Assembly (NCBI RefSeq): GCF_002210345.1
Contig: NZ_MWQI01000001.1
Coordinates: 930,001 to 994,000, forward strand
Direction of reading: 5' to 3'
Source: Fibrobacter sp. UWB4
GTDB lineage: Bacteria; Fibrobacterota; Fibrobacteria; Fibrobacterales; Fibrobacteraceae
Length of the DNA: 64,000 nucleotides
Position 1 is the stretch's first letter, and the number at the start of each line of letters is the position of its first letter. Shown here piece by piece: positions 11,112 to 15,807 of the stretch. A program made the translations under genes and the position numbers. Below the pieces are notes generated by a model. The model ran no database searches, was not told the DNA's origin, and saw only the letters and a list, made by a program, of their open reading frames with translations.

Positions 11112-11271
11112 TGTTGAATCGGGGGTGCTCTGGTTTGCCAAAATTTCTGCTACTCGCAGCAATTTTGCCCCTCGGGTCTTTCGAACGCATGCGTTCTCAA
11201 GAGCTTAAATGCTCGCAAGCTCGCATTTAGTCGACAGGCCTGTCTCAACCAGATCATAATTTGAACATGCC

Positions 11272-11303
11272 TTTGCATTTTAACCTGATGTTTGTTATAT
11301 TTG
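11272..11303 (+). promoter_or_regulatory. Perfect -33/-7 promoter in repeat unit 1
   Basis: TTTG (11272-11275), exactly 20 bp, then TATATTTG (11296-11303). Transcription would begin about 10-15 bases before the GGGGGTGCTC of unit 2. Confidence 0.65.
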
Positions 11304-11473
11304 TGTTCAACCACTAATATACGGGGGTGCTCTGGTTTGCCAAAATTTCTGCTACTCGCAGCAATTTTGCCCCTCGGGTCTTTCGAACGCATGCGTTCTC
11401 AAGAGCTTAAATGCTCGCAAGCTCGCATTTAGTCGACAGGCCTGTCTCAACCAGATCATAATTTGAACATGCC

Positions 11474-11505
11474 TTTGCATTTTAACCTGATGTTTGTTAT
11501 ATTTG
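11474..11505 (+). promoter_or_regulatory. Perfect -33/-7 promoter in repeat unit 2
   Basis: An identical copy of the 11272-11303 promoter, placed before unit 3. I see no comparable promoter between 11525 and the tmRNA start at 11678. This is therefore a candidate promoter for a precursor containing unit 3 plus tmRNA. Confidence 0.65.
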
Positions 11506-11650
11506 TGTTCAACCACTAATATACGGGGGTGCTCTGGTTTGCCAAAATTTCTGCTACTCGCAGCAATTTTGCCCCTCGGGTCTTTCGAACGCATGCGTTC
11601 TCAAGAGCTTAAATGCTCGCAAGCTCGCATTTAATCGACAGGCCTGTCTC

Positions 11651-11692
11651 AACCGAGCACCCTTGTGTAGAACACAAGGGGGTGCTCTGGTT
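11651..11692 (+). other. Inverted repeat spanning the tmRNA 5' processing site
   Basis: AACCGAGCACCCTTGTGT and ACACAAGGGGGTGCTCTGGTT are near-perfect complements around an AGA loop. The right arm contains the first 15 bases of mature tmRNA. In a precursor this hairpin would compete with the tmRNA acceptor stem (5' GGGGGUG with 3' CACCUCC). Confidence 0.65.
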
Positions 11693-12035
11693 TCGACAGG
11701 GTTACCGAAGTGTTAGTTGCAAGTCGAGGTCTCAGACGAGGGCAACTCGTTAAAAAGTCTGAAAAAAAATAAGTGCTGACGAAAACTACGCACTCGCTGC
11801 CTAATTAACGGCAACGCCGGGCCTCATTCCGCTCCCATCGGGGTGTACGTCCGGACGCAATATGGGATAGGGAAGTGTCATGCCTGGGGGCATCTCCCGA
11901 GATTTTCTAGGCTGGTCAAACTCCGCGCCGACCTTCTTGGGCGTGGATAAGACGAGATCTTAAATTCGAAGGGAACACTTGTAGGAACGTACATGGACGT
12001 GATTTTGGACAGGGGTTCGACTCCCCTCACCTCCA
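11678..12035 (+). ncRNA. ssrA: Transfer-messenger RNA (tmRNA)
   Basis: tmRNA rescues stalled ribosomes and tags the released protein for proteolysis. The 358-nt molecule starts GGGGGTGCTCTGGTTTCGAC and ends with a T arm (AGGGG TTCGACT CCCCT) and CACCTCC plus discriminator A at 12035. The acceptor stem GGGGGUG/CACCUCC includes the G3-U pair that marks alanine acceptance. The tag frame runs 11775-11804 and encodes ADENYALAA followed by TAA. CCA is not encoded and must be added. Pseudoknot-like pairings occupy the middle. A terminator hairpin follows at 12042. The repeat array and processing-site hairpin upstream are unusual for ssrA. Confidence 0.97.
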
Positions 12036-12087: not shown

Positions 12088-14169
12088 TTACGAGAGGATA
12101 ACCTTTTCTAAATTGACTTTTTCGCCTTTTAAGTTGGATTTGTCAATCAGGAAAATATCCTGTTTTTCAAACATGACAATGCCTTTGCATTGATTGTATG
12201 TTTCTTCCGAATAAGACTCTACAATGACAAATGTTTTCAAATTGAATTTTCGTATTTTTTCAAGAACCGATTTTGAATCTTCATGTCCATCTTCGTAAAG
12301 AAGGACCTTGTCCGTTGGGTTCAAGTTGTCCTTAATCCAGTGGGCGAGATCTTCGTTCCAGAGACTCTCCTTGATTGGCAAAAGGAGGGAAATTAAAGAG
12401 CTGGAATTCTGTTTTATACGATATTGCAGCAGCTCTTTTACTTGACCGAGTTGTACTGAGATGTTTTTTCCATCAACGTCCGGCTTTATCCAGATTTCAT
12501 CGACGTTTGAATCGATGAACTGCTTGTATTCTGGGCAATTAAGCTTGGAACCTTCCAATATAACCGTGCTATGGCTCTTCTTGGAATCGAGTATGTCGAT
12601 CATTGCCATAACATCTTTGTTCTGCTCAAAATCCTTTCCGTAAATTGCGACCTTTTCGTAGTGCTTTACGTCGTGAATGTCCATAAGGCTGTAGAAGGTC
12701 TGTAAATCTATGGAATCCTTGTCTTTCCCGTTGTCCAAAGCGACAAAAATGTTTCTTGGATCTTCGTTTGGAATATTAAAATTGAGCAGATACGGTAATT
12801 GAGGGTTATTTTCAAACTCTTCAATTAAGAATGGCAACATCATTTTGTTGAATTCGCAAACTTCGTTTTCCAGTTCGCCATCTTTTCCGGCGTAATGGTC
12901 AACAGAATGGCAAACTCCACCGCATAGCCTTTTCCAGACGCAGTCCTTGCAGCGTTTAAAGTTGTCTCTCGAACGGCTGAGCGTTTTGGCCATAATTGGG
13001 CTTTGCGCAAGCAGTTTGTCGATGGGCGCTTCGTGGACGTTTCCTATTTTGAAATCCGGGTCGCCAATGAAATCATCGCAGATATAAATGTCACCGTTGT
13101 TCGAAAAACCGAGCATGTTTTTCCCTGCGCCACAGGGAATCTGCGAACACATAAACGTGTTTTCGTTTGCAAATAAGCTGGATGCCATGTCTGCCAAAGT
13201 GCGTTCGTGTATTTTTTCTTGATTGTGGGTGTTGTTTTCGACAACCCGTTCGTATATTCTTTTATAGGCTTTGAATATCTGCTCTCCTGTTACATATAGA
13301 GAGCTGTCGTTCCCTCCACGTCCAACTTTCATTAGGGGAATGAATGAGAATGAGTAGATGTTATTGGCGAGGTAAAAATCAAGAACTTCATCAATGTGTT
13401 CGGCGACATTGCTTGTCATGACGCCCAATACGCCAAAGAGGACCCCGTGCTTTTGCAATATGCGGATCCCACGCAATGTCTGATCCAGGGAGCCTTTGCC
13501 ATTTTGCAAGACTCTCGCTGTATTTTGGAATGGGGCCGGTCCATCGAGACTTACGCCGACTTGGATATTGTTGCTCTTGATAAATTCTGCAATTTCGTCG
13601 GTGACCATAGACGCGTTTGTCTGAATGGATATAATCACCTTGTTATCGTATTTTTTTGAATATTCAACAAGATCCTTGATCAGTTTGAAATTGATTAACG
13701 GTTCTCCACCATGTAAAACAACAGTTATGCTCTTGCCTGGATTTAAGCGGACGTATTCGTCTACAACTTTGTGCGCTGTTTCTGTTGACATGTGGGAGGA
13801 CTGGTCAATGCCTGCGTTTGAATAGCAGTATACGCACTTTAAGTTACAGGCTAGAGTGATTTTCAAAACAGCAAGGGTCGGATATTCTTTTAATGCGCAG
13901 GTGGAGCTGCACTTGCTCTGTCTTGAATCTGTTTTAGAAGTAAGCAGATTATGCGTATGCAGAAGATATTTTAGCTTGTCGATATCTTCAAGAGAAATTC
14001 CGTCGCATTGATTAAATATGGCTTCCGTCTCTATGCCGGATTCTATCTTTTGCACAATGTCTTTGCTGACGTCATCAAGAAGTAACCACCCTCCAGTCTT
14101 GGGATTGATTGCTAATTGTCTGTTATTTTTTAACTGAAGCCATTTAATGGGGTTTTGAGTCTCGATCAT
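12088..14169 (-). CDS. Radical SAM/SPASM peptide maturase with N-terminal RRE-like domain
   Basis: The 693-residue protein probably modifies the small peptide encoded just upstream at 14241-14612. Residues about 10-76 (INPKTGGWLLLDD...GISLEDIDKLKYLL) resemble a PqqD-type recognition domain. The radical SAM cluster ligands are C108, C112 and C115 in ACNLKCVYC, followed by VVLHGGEPL and VGVSLDGP. The SPASM region has eight cysteines (C341, C346, C364, C407, C410, C416, C420, C438) in the usual spacing for two auxiliary clusters. About 220 C-terminal residues (470-693) match no domain I know. The architecture resembles maturases described as the FibroRumin group in a survey of radical SAM peptide systems; that link is from memory. 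No protease or exporter gene is adjacent. Confidence 0.88.
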   Translation of the reverse strand: MIETQNPIKWLQLKNNRQLAINPKTGGWLLLDDVSKDIVQKIESGIETEAIFNQCDGISLEDIDKLKYLLHTHNLLTSKTDSRQSKCSSTCALKEYPTLAVLKITLACNLKCVYCYSNAGIDQSSHMSTETAHKVVDEYVRLNPGKSITVVLHGGEPLINFKLIKDLVEYSKKYDNKVIISIQTNASMVTDEIAEFIKSNNIQVGVSLDGPAPFQNTARVLQNGKGSLDQTLRGIRILQKHGVLFGVLGVMTSNVAEHIDEVLDFYLANNIYSFSFIPLMKVGRGGNDSSLYVTGEQIFKAYKRIYERVVENNTHNQEKIHERTLADMASSLFANENTFMCSQIPCGAGKNMLGFSNNGDIYICDDFIGDPDFKIGNVHEAPIDKLLAQSPIMAKTLSRSRDNFKRCKDCVWKRLCGGVCHSVDHYAGKDGELENEVCEFNKMMLPFLIEEFENNPQLPYLLNFNIPNEDPRNIFVALDNGKDKDSIDLQTFYSLMDIHDVKHYEKVAIYGKDFEQNKDVMAMIDILDSKKSHSTVILEGSKLNCPEYKQFIDSNVDEIWIKPDVDGKNISVQLGQVKELLQYRIKQNSSSLISLLLPIKESLWNEDLAHWIKDNLNPTDKVLLYEDGHEDSKSVLEKIRKFNLKTFVIVESYSEETYNQCKGIVMFEKQDIFLIDKSNLKGEKVNLEKVILS

Positions 14170-14184
14170 AATAATATTTCAAAA

Positions 14185-14213
14185 TACTGGAATGACTTTA
14201 CGCCATTCCAGTA
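14185..14213 (-). terminator. Attenuator-like hairpin between precursor and maturase genes
   Basis: TACTGGAATG / CATTCCAGTA arms give a 10-bp stem in the 71-bp gap between the two genes. On the minus strand it is followed by a short T-rich stretch. A partial terminator here would give more precursor than enzyme, as is common in ribosomal-peptide operons. Confidence 0.6.
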
Positions 14214-14240
14214 ACAATTTATTTTAACCTATGATTTAGA

Positions 14241-14612
14241 TTAGCGAATTTTGAGGACCTTCTCGACGGCAGCTCTATTAGCTGGTTCGAAGGAAATCTT
14301 ATTTTCCGTAAGCTTGCAGCCAAGTTCAGCAAGCTTTAAGGTTGTTTCTTTTTCCAGCACACCTTCAAATTCGATATAAGAGGTGCTTTGCTTGAGTTCG
14401 GCCTTTGCAACCGGGTTGATTTTCTTGTATGGACGAGGAATCGGAATGATGATTTCTTTGTAAGGATAGAACTTGATGTATGGTTTAGACTTGATATATG
14501 GACCATCTTGGAGGTATGGCTTTTTACCGACATCTTCAAGTCGTTTGCCTGTTGTTTTTAAAGATTCAACAACATTAATCTTGTTGTTGAGATTGACTTT
14601 TTTGTTATCCAT
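14241..14612 (-). CDS. Candidate ribosomal natural-product precursor with PY hexad repeats
   Basis: The 123-residue basic peptide precedes the radical SAM/SPASM maturase and probably is its substrate. Residues 1-30 are leader-like (VVESLKTTGKRLEDVG). From residue 32 the dipeptide PY recurs every six residues, at 32, 38, 44 and 50 (PYLQDG, PYIKSK, PYIKFY, PYKEII), with a fifth PY at 61. This block is rich in Lys and Ile. The C-terminal half (about 70-123) looks like a small folded domain with the single Cys99. There is no double-glycine cleavage motif and no cysteine cluster, so it is unlike SCIFF or lanthipeptides. The ATG at 14612 has CAGGAGA about nine bases upstream. I do not recognise a named family. 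Confidence 0.75.
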   Translation of the reverse strand: MDNKKVNLNNKINVVESLKTTGKRLEDVGKKPYLQDGPYIKSKPYIKFYPYKEIIIPIPRPYKKINPVAKAELKQSTSYIEFEGVLEKETTLKLAELGCKLTENKISFEPANRAAVEKVLKIR

Positions 14613-14813
14613 TATTTTGTTTCTCCTGTAGAAGGTGTTAGTATTATTTTTAACACAGTAACGTAAGTATAGTTTATTTAAGAAAAAATTAATTTAATTC
14701 AGATGTAAAATTTTCTTTGTATATACAGACAATTTCATTTTCATGCTTAAAATAGGGGCTTTTTTCCCTGAAATCTGTTTGCGTGATGCTGATTTGAACC
14801 TTTTTCCCCATGC

Positions 14814-14861
14814 TTTACATAAAATGTAAAACTATTTGTTATAATTTACATATTTTGTAAA
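14814..14861. promoter_or_regulatory. Two upstream activator palindromes for dapF
   Basis: TTTACATAAAATGTAAA (14814-14830) is a perfect 17-bp palindrome, and TTTACATATTTTGTAAA (14845-14861) has perfect TTTACA/TGTAAA arms. They lie about 117 and 86 bp before the -24 box. Their centres are 31 bp apart, the same spacing as the two sites above the pyrG promoter. Confidence 0.65.
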
Positions 14862-14945
14862 AGCTTTCAATTTGTGAAAAATGTTTTGTTATGGATGAAT
14901 GGCGAATTTAGCTTAATTTTGCCCTTTTTACTGAAAATGTAAAAG

Positions 14946-14960
14946 TGGCACGATTTTTGC
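14946..14960 (+). promoter_or_regulatory. Sigma-54 (-24/-12) promoter of dapF
   Basis: TGGCACGATTTTTGC matches the consensus TGGCACGnnnnTTGC throughout. The start would be near 14972, about 26 nt before the dapF ATG at 14998. Confidence 0.85.
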
Positions 14961-14997
14961 CTATAGAGCGCGAATAGCGTAAAAAGGATTACATTTT

Positions 14998-15807
14998 ATG
15001 TCTTTAAAATTTTCAAAATGGACTGGCCTCGGCAACGACTTCGTTCTCGTCGAACCTGGTGAGTCATTCGACATGACTCCAGGCAAGGCTCTGGAACAGC
15101 GTGTAATTGAACTTTGCGATAGACGCTTTGGCATTGGCGCTGACGGGGTAGTTGTCGTGACTCCGATAAACGAAAATGTAAAAAGCAACGAGTTTGAAAT
15201 GCGTATTTTCAACGCAGACGGTTCCGAAGCTGCCATGTGCGGTAATGCCACGCGTTGTGTTGCGAAGTTTATTCAAAGTCGCGGTCTTAGCGACGATAGC
15301 AATTTTGTCTTGCACACCAAAAGCGGTCTTGTAAAGCCATCCGTTCTGCCGGATGGCCGTGTTTGTGTAAATATGGGCCTCCCGCGCGATTTCTTGGGAA
15401 CGATCAAGCTCACGGCAGATACTTTTGATTTTACAGGTGTAACGGTTTCGATGGGCAATCCGCATACCGTTATTTTCGTTGACGATATCGAAAAAATCCA
15501 GCTTGAAAATTGGGGACGCATCCTCGAAGTGGACAAGATTTTCCCTGACCGCTGCAACATTGAATTTGCACAAGTGATCGACGAAAATACGATCCGCATG
15601 CGCGTCTGGGAACGCGGTTGTGGCGTGACGATGGCTTGTGGCACAGGAAGCTGCGCAACGCTTGTTGCCGCCCAGCGCACCGGTCGCATTGGCCTCGAAG
15701 CTGACGTCGTCCTGGATGGCGGTACGCTCCACATCAAGCACGAAGAAGGCGGCCCTGTCTTTATGACCGGCCCCGCGAAGGAAGTCTTTAAAGGAGTAGT
15801 TGATTAA
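14998..15807 (+). CDS. dapF: Diaminopimelate epimerase
   Basis: DapF interconverts LL- and meso-diaminopimelate for lysine and peptidoglycan synthesis. The 269 residues carry the two catalytic cysteines: Cys81 in NADGSEAAMCGNATRC and Cys214 in TMACGTGSCATLV. The N-terminal FSKWTGLGNDFVLVE is typical. The ATG at 14998 lies downstream of a consensus sigma-54 promoter with two activator palindromes, so the gene appears to be controlled with nitrogen assimilation. dapL follows after 130 bp, separated by an inverted heptad-repeat array. Confidence 0.96.
   Translation: MSLKFSKWTGLGNDFVLVEPGESFDMTPGKALEQRVIELCDRRFGIGADGVVVVTPINENVKSNEFEMRIFNADGSEAAMCGNATRCVAKFIQSRGLSDDSNFVLHTKSGLVKPSVLPDGRVCVNMGLPRDFLGTIKLTADTFDFTGVTVSMGNPHTVIFVDDIEKIQLENWGRILEVDKIFPDRCNIEFAQVIDENTIRMRVWERGCGVTMACGTGSCATLVAAQRTGRIGLEADVVLDGGTLHIKHEEGGPVFMTGPAKEVFKGVVD

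Follow-up and report, generated by a model that had tools for sequence, protein, structure and literature searches.

A two-gene radical SAM/SPASM system of Fibrobacter with aromatic-x-polar peptide cores, a putative source of three-residue cyclophanes

Introduction

The closest described counterparts of the locus presented here are the triceptide systems with their 3-CyFEs, in which a sulfatase-maturase-like SPASM enzyme is combined with a small precursor repeating aromatic-x-residue triads. In the 3-CyFE reaction an aromatic ring becomes linked to Cbeta of the residue at i+2, and the published cases comprise Tyr, Trp, Phe, and His as first and Asp, Asn, and Arg as third residue (PMC11002830). 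The described pairs are Tyr-Asp (YxdB), Tyr-Arg and His-Arg (YhhB), His-Ala (HaaB), Trp-Asn/Asp/Arg (OscB, XncB), and additionally Phe-Asn/Ser (PMC11002830). In a genome survey, repeating Tyr-Asn-Arg and His-Asn-Arg motifs as well as Aro-x-x-Asn motifs were found beside related enzymes (PMC9062424). DarE and DynA, too, are SPASM enzymes which crosslink aromatic side chains within a short motif; in darobactin, Trp and Lys are joined by a C-C bond and the follower is short (PMC9055067).

The window analyzed in this work is a stretch of 64,000 nucleotides from Fibrobacter sp. UWB4. It carries a radical SAM enzyme with a CxxxCxxC motif and a SPASM region, next to a precursor with repeated triads. 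In contrast to the triceptide systems, the enzyme possesses an extra C-terminal domain which is predicted to be TIM-barrel-like, the core lies in the middle of the precursor, the follower is folded, and mainly Lys and Asp occupy the third position. We know of no described triceptide with a core between a leader and a folded follower of 45 aa, nor of one with such a C-terminal domain. On motif evidence the system would work like a triceptide system, with the bond itself being putative. A literature search, mostly outside subscription journals, returned no description of this family. An earlier reading of the window, made from the sequence only, had expected a new product, which appears fair for the family, whereas i/i+2 aromatic crosslinks as such are already known from triceptides (PMC11002830).

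Results

Domain structure and classification of the maturase

The positions and lengths which the sequence-only reading had given for both genes proved to be exact (Table 1). Its three radical SAM and eight SPASM cysteines were found as well, and all of them, the latter being C341, 346, 364, 407, 410, 416, 420, and 438, are invariant in nine homologs. The Pfam profiles Radical_SAM (PF04055, 3e-23) and SPASM (PF13186, 5e-7) matched the enzyme, and the SPASM region is expected to hold two auxiliary Fe-S clusters.

Table 1. Position of the features in the window and of related features in other genomes.
Feature	Position	Strand	Evidence or remark
Radical SAM/SPASM maturase, 693 aa, intact	12088-14169	-	ORF, Pfam, cysteine motifs, structure model
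RRE-like winged-helix domain (putative), residues 9-72	13954-14145	-	predicted fold; profile aligns with CteB N-terminus
CxxxCxxC motif CNLKCVYC, residues 108-115	13825-13848	-	C108, C112, C115 invariant in nine homologs
SPASM region, eight cysteines, residues 341-438	12856-13149	-	Pfam PF13186; invariant cysteines; fold
TIM-barrel-like C-terminal domain (predicted) without Fe-S motif, residues 466-690	12100-12774	-	alternating beta/alpha prediction
Intergenic stem-loop, 12 pairs, 5-nt loop	14185-14213	-	between precursor and enzyme
Precursor gene, 123 aa	14241-14612	-	ORF; homologous peptides adjoin 9/9 enzyme copies
Follower domain, residues 78-123, predicted beta-alpha-beta-alpha	14244-14381	-	AlphaFold2 pLDDT; profile search
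Core, residues 32-66	14415-14519	-	repeat statistics; +2 enrichment; hypervariable compared with leader and follower
Leader, residues 1-31, MDNKKVNLNNKINVVESLKTTGKRLEDVGKK	14520-14612	-	motif kept in closer relatives; predicted disordered
Broken (frameshifted) fourth precursor of G092, core RWDEGHPGWIKGWMDG	L017:12092-12355	-	follower part in another frame
46-55-aa peptide	L019:6125-6292, L020:5649-5789, L021:8817-8957	all -	conserved end DDPILNASSINSEDYWFLKLSGNDK
PapB-like radical SAM family	G000:C1:1150746-1151828 (L179:6746-7840); L179:5525-6749; also L177

For the N-terminal 72 residues a beta-beta-beta-alpha-alpha-alpha succession was predicted with a pLDDT of about 70-80, as in RRE/PqqD-like winged helices, and the enzyme profile aligns with CteB starting at CteB residue 12. 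Since Pfam PqqD gave no match in the enzyme, the assignment as a putative RRE of the PqqD-like winged-helix type, which the earlier reading had proposed, rests on the predicted structure and the CteB alignment. In the structure model, which has a moderate mean pLDDT of 68, residues 110-466 are closest to anSMEcpe among the solved folds (Z 27.5), followed by ChlB (22), CteB (21.7), and TigE (19.8). The latter three share the radical SAM and SPASM fold at Z 20-22 and CteB likewise carries an N-terminal recognition domain, but CteB makes thioethers, and a sactipeptide or ranthipeptide was rejected for the window because its core lacks Cys as thioether donor.

The C-terminal region of about 220 residues noticed before is real and predicted to form a barrel. 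VIA-align gave Z 10.8-11.8 to TIM barrels, including HydE, with unrelated barrels reaching equal Z, and within the 168 Fibrobacterota genomes the domain is confined to the nine enzymes of this family. A duplicated radical SAM barrel was rejected, as a profile comparison between the domain and the radical SAM core of the same enzyme gave no match. The pseudo-rSAM model TIGR04150 of the GG-Bacteroidales system, by its name radical-SAM-like with the cluster motif lost, matched the domain weakly in two of the seven members (E 0.009-0.027), though far below its cut-off (13.5 against 250 bits).

Compared with the NCBIfam models the enzyme stayed under the cut-off of every family, and the three highest scores were obtained with anSME, HxsB, and DynA. 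An anaerobic sulfatase maturase was rejected, given 187 bits against the TIGR03942 cut-off of 349 and the absence of a sulfatase partner: in no locus does a sulfatase gene stand alongside the enzyme, the partner being the follower-bearing peptide in each of them. HxsB (TIGR03978, 184 bits, cut-off 370) shares with the present system substrates of aromatic-x-polar type, namely His-x-Ser repeats; neither a follower nor a TIM-barrel domain was seen in Hxs. A further radical SAM enzyme takes part in Hxs systems. DynA (182/450) and DarE (128/650) are both distinguished from our system by another core and a much shorter follower. The scores for the cyclophane families were 128/310 for GrrM, 123/425 for AmcB, and 111/445 for YhhB, and the enzyme is far below all cut-offs of GrrM/OscB, XyeB, FxsB, AmcB, and YhhB. 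By profile score it is outside the curated cyclophane subfamilies, and the same chemistry remains compatible with this position.

Architecture of the precursor

The precursor gene, to which an RBS-like AGGAGA on the minus strand (14622-14627) belongs, encodes from N- to C-terminus a leader, an aromatic-repeat core, and a follower domain. This is in agreement with the layout proposed by the sequence-only reading, as AlphaFold2 predicted disorder up to residue 77 (pLDDT about 45-68) and a fold thereafter, with pLDDT 81-85 over most of residues 78-120. A leader motif of the type 'LNVK.S....G.R' is common to the closer relatives in the alignment. The follower fold gave no significant Foldseek match, the precursor matched none of the NCBIfam models, and in Pfam no family scored above the cut-off.

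Between the two genes, the intergenic stretch has a folding energy of -22.0 kcal/mol. Except in G037, a stem-loop of differing sequence occupies this position in the other gaps between precursor and enzyme that were checked. A stem-loop between precursor and enzyme genes is a common way to obtain more precursor than enzyme, and it is possible that the one described here is an attenuator favoring precursor expression.

Aromatic-x-polar triads in the core

The window core consists of PYLQDG, PYIKSK, PYIKFY, PYKEII, IPIPR, and PYKKIN, with the Pro of PY at residues 32, 38, 44, 50, and 61, as reported before. In 200,000 shuffles of the precursor's own residues, at least five PY occurred in a fraction of 1e-5 and four PY in period-six register in none. 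The PY repeats are unlike in sequence and codons, so that a trivial recent DNA duplication is ruled out as their source. The only Cys of the precursor is situated in the follower, and the core is not Cys-rich, as had been stated; in the relatives G074c and G092c, core Cys does occur, as the central residue of triads (HCK, WCK).

The period of six is lost in the relatives, while a triad of an aromatic, any and a polar residue is kept, in the window as YLQ, YIK, YIK, YKE, and YKK. G076 harbors PPYKDF, PPYRRC, PPYKDF, PPYKDL, PHKD, and HTD, G028 YLD, PYKDQ, TYKDQ, PHRR, and PYVDL, G089 PYCNWLDFTND, and G037 RHLD and PYHFD with a single PY. In two of the seven genomes, G074 and G092, triads on Trp, Phe, and His (WYD, FSD, WMD, HCK, WCK) take the place of the PY repeats; the cores of G074 are WYDFSDTPW and YYQWMDFSDDPW, FSDDRGWYDEKIGWDK, and HCKGWCKFSD. 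The PY period was therefore rejected as family signature, and the conserved element is aromatic-x-polar rather than PY as first proposed. According to the sequence-only reading, homologous enzymes without an adjacent PY peptide would speak against it. This was partly found, and the wider triad pattern is present in every locus.

Within nine core segments, 45 of the 68 aromatic residues (Y, W, F, H) are followed by D, N, K, R, Q, or E at +2, compared with an expectation of 37% in shuffles, none of which (0/5000, P<2e-4) reached this count. In the other window proteins the corresponding value is 31.5%, with 31-32% at every offset tested. At the core offsets -3, -2, -1, +1, +3, and +4 polar enrichment was absent, and the fact that +2 and -2 behave differently argues against a simple alternation as in a beta-strand. 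The +2 fraction exceeds the expectation in all nine precursors (singly P 0.002-0.26, jointly 3e-5), the window precursor by itself being weakly enriched (P=0.045). As the residue class was picked after the sequences had been seen and with the triceptide literature in mind, the enrichment counts as support rather than as a blind test. WDE, WIK, and WMD are present in the broken precursor of G092, which was left out of the count. Lys and Asp prevail as third residues, and contiguous triads occur as well (YCN-WLD-FTN in G089, YYQ-WMD-FSD in G074). The remaining 23 of the 68 aromatics lack a polar +2 residue, notably Y49 of the window precursor and, in G074, the Trp of PWEL and PWKL. In four of four compared pairs the core is less conserved than leader and follower (for G000/G089 13% compared with 42% and 41%), and such hypervariability is the usual mark of a RiPP core.

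Distribution and genomic context

The full-length enzyme was found in nine copies in seven genomes of one genus, the same seven being obtained from the enzyme search in 111 genomes of the family and from the alignment-profile search in 168 genomes of the phylum Fibrobacterota. A profile of the follower identified 13 domains (E<1e-15) in exactly these genomes, all inside the enzyme loci, and the next-best matches reached only E about 0.005. A precursor is located directly upstream of every enzyme copy. Precursor and enzyme are a real pair; the pairing assumed earlier turned out as perfect co-occurrence in seven of 168 genomes, and a peptide occurring mainly without the enzyme, once named as an argument against it, was not encountered. 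Outside the phylum only the enzyme core was matched among the best 80 matches listed, mostly over residues ~98-457 and with up to 31%, and none of these 80 contained the C-terminal domain. Viral contigs and plasmids yielded generic radical SAM relatives only. The best of the 80 matches outside the phylum is a locus from Lachnospiraceae (L022:3632-6881), where two radical SAM genes are followed by a His-x-Ser-rich protein (SHRSHSSHRS...), a His-Xaa-Ser type system.

The chromosomal sites vary among the seven genomes. In G037, G076, and G028 the system adjoins hflX, and a conserved peptide of 46-55 aa ending in DDPILNASSINSEDYWFLKLSGNDK is encoded between maturase and hflX. In G074, G092, and G089 it adjoins a different radical SAM gene of 370 aa, which was rejected as second maturase, since its family is present in 60 of the 80 genus genomes and mostly without the system. 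In G074 five genes form a row of precursor, enzyme 2, precursor, double precursor, and enzyme 1. The double precursor repeats leader, core, and follower, so that each unit seems to be recognized on its own. The PapB-like radical SAM family of 363-370 aa that occurs in 60 of the 80 genus genomes is separate from the present system. In G000 and G063 the PapB-like gene is preceded by genes for two Ser-rich, lipoprotein-like proteins that have MKIEKKKV/I at the N-terminus and M-x-S/T-T-F/Y-E as C-terminal tail in common, and this enzyme is perhaps a maturase with secreted protein substrates.

In the window no other gene accompanies the pair, which is flanked by the tmRNA gene (11525-12035, ARAGORN) and dapF (14998-15807, Pfam DAP_epimerase). 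The G+C contents of the two genes, 0.39 and 0.41, are lower than the 0.48 of the window. The genome comprises 3.58 Mb; a GH5 cellulase is encoded in the window, and a Fib_succ_major domain was found in a congeneric relative. A 202-bp unit, repeated 2.6 times with 99% likeness (11120-11654), immediately adjoins the tmRNA gene on its 5' side. The unit opens with CGGGGGTGCTCTGGTTT, which is almost identical to the likely genuine 5' end of the tmRNA near 11680, and the ARAGORN start at 11525 is thus probably too early.

In the close relative G063, whose dapF is 99% identical to that of the window, a gene of 137 aa follows the tmRNA gene and glutamate synthase genes precede dapF, the two places being 236 kb apart. 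In the window's genome the 137-aa gene adjoins a glutamate synthase small-subunit-like gene about 212 kb off. From these gene orders the system reads as lying at one junction of a large (~212-kb) inversion relative to G063 (window 12088-14997 compared with L177, L178, and L179). Insertion into an empty site was rejected, as there is no simple empty site at this inversion junction.

Discussion

Proposed chemistry

We consider it likely, by analogy, that the two genes form a RiPP system whose enzyme makes a series of three-residue cyclophanes at the aromatic-x-polar triads. Since known 3-CyFEs join residues i and i+2 by a C-C bond, such a series would be the best explanation, and the present cores suit the i/i+2 rule best. 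The RRE-like domain of the enzyme would hold the leader of the precursor. Another grip would probably come from the folded follower, perhaps by contact with the TIM-barrel-like domain, and the disordered core lying between the two could then reach the active site. There the 5'-deoxyadenosyl radical would abstract a Cbeta hydrogen of the third triad residue, after which a C-C bond to the aromatic ring would close the three-residue cyclophane. The window peptide could thereby acquire up to five cyclophanes (Y33-Q35, Y39-K41, Y45-K47, Y51-E53, and Y62-K64), each with the loss of 2 H. This would be in line, for Tyr and a neighboring Lys, with the series of identical modifications that had been suggested beforehand, for example at Tyr or the adjoining Ile/Lys.

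The present data show that the two genes are paired, how their products are divided into domains, the cysteine motifs, and the i/i+2 signature. Bond type, grip between follower and C-terminal domain, and proteolytic release are what we infer from these comparisons, and the two-ended grip (RRE on leader, follower on barrel) is hypothesized from the anatomy of both proteins. Only tentatively do we propose that this constitutes a new RiPP recognition architecture, with an RRE on the leader and a follower docked on a cysteine-free TIM-barrel domain, through which a single enzyme family would build cyclophanes in series on Tyr, Trp, Phe, and His while the core sequence varies freely.

Alternative explanations

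The product would be released by housekeeping proteases or stay whole. The second fate, in which follower and core together act as a small crosslinked protein, fits any chemistry. We regard it as rather unlikely, even though the follower is a folded, conserved domain and neither protease nor exporter genes are adjacent in any of the seven loci according to ORF lists covering several kb on either side, as far as the exporter in keeping with the earlier reading. In E. coli, darobactin needs no protease of its own and is freed by those of the host (PMC9055067), so that the missing protease is not telling here, and the hypervariability of the core points to this segment as the active part.

The same two-gene RiPP logic might also produce another aromatic crosslink, e.g., an ether as in darobactin, a C-C bond at i/i+3 or longer distance, or a link between neighboring repeats. 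The related SPASM enzymes DarE and DynA form a mixture of C-O, C-C, and C-N crosslinks, one of the three best NCBIfam scores is that of DynA, and the six-residue spacing in the window would also suit links from Tyr to the next repeat. Nevertheless this seems unlikely, with +2 as the sole enriched offset, the triad outlasting the period of six in the relatives, and contiguous triads such as YCN-WLD-FTN suiting closed three-residue units. Still less probable is a change per repeat other than a crosslink, for example epimerization, beta-oxidation, or tyramine excision. Radical SAM RiPP enzymes of all such kinds exist, and the closest fold match, anSME, is an oxidizing enzyme; however, the window core offers neither Cys nor repeated Ser for anSME-type oxidation, tyramine excision was rejected for its lack of Tyr-Gly, and the polar +2 residue in unrelated cores would be left unexplained. 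A chance neighborhood of an unrelated PY-rich protein and an orphan sulfatase-type maturase, to which the anSME-like score and fold of the enzyme might point, is highly improbable and already contradicted: in seven genomes, at differing chromosomal sites, the two co-occur exactly and lie next to each other, with no sulfatase gene alongside.

Significance

With cyclophane formation as the preferred reading, the follower domain and the fused barrel set the system apart from the described systems known to us or read, and mark it as a previously undescribed branch of ring-forming peptide systems. If true, it would represent a family of crosslinked peptides confined to one genus of gut bacteria that degrade cellulose, with maturases that apparently accept four aromatics and several third residues and might be useful for peptide engineering. 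The pairing, with two genes only, is simple enough for immediate co-expression, and the two-ended precursor together with the fused barrel offers a testable idea of how variable cores may be processed at multiple sites.
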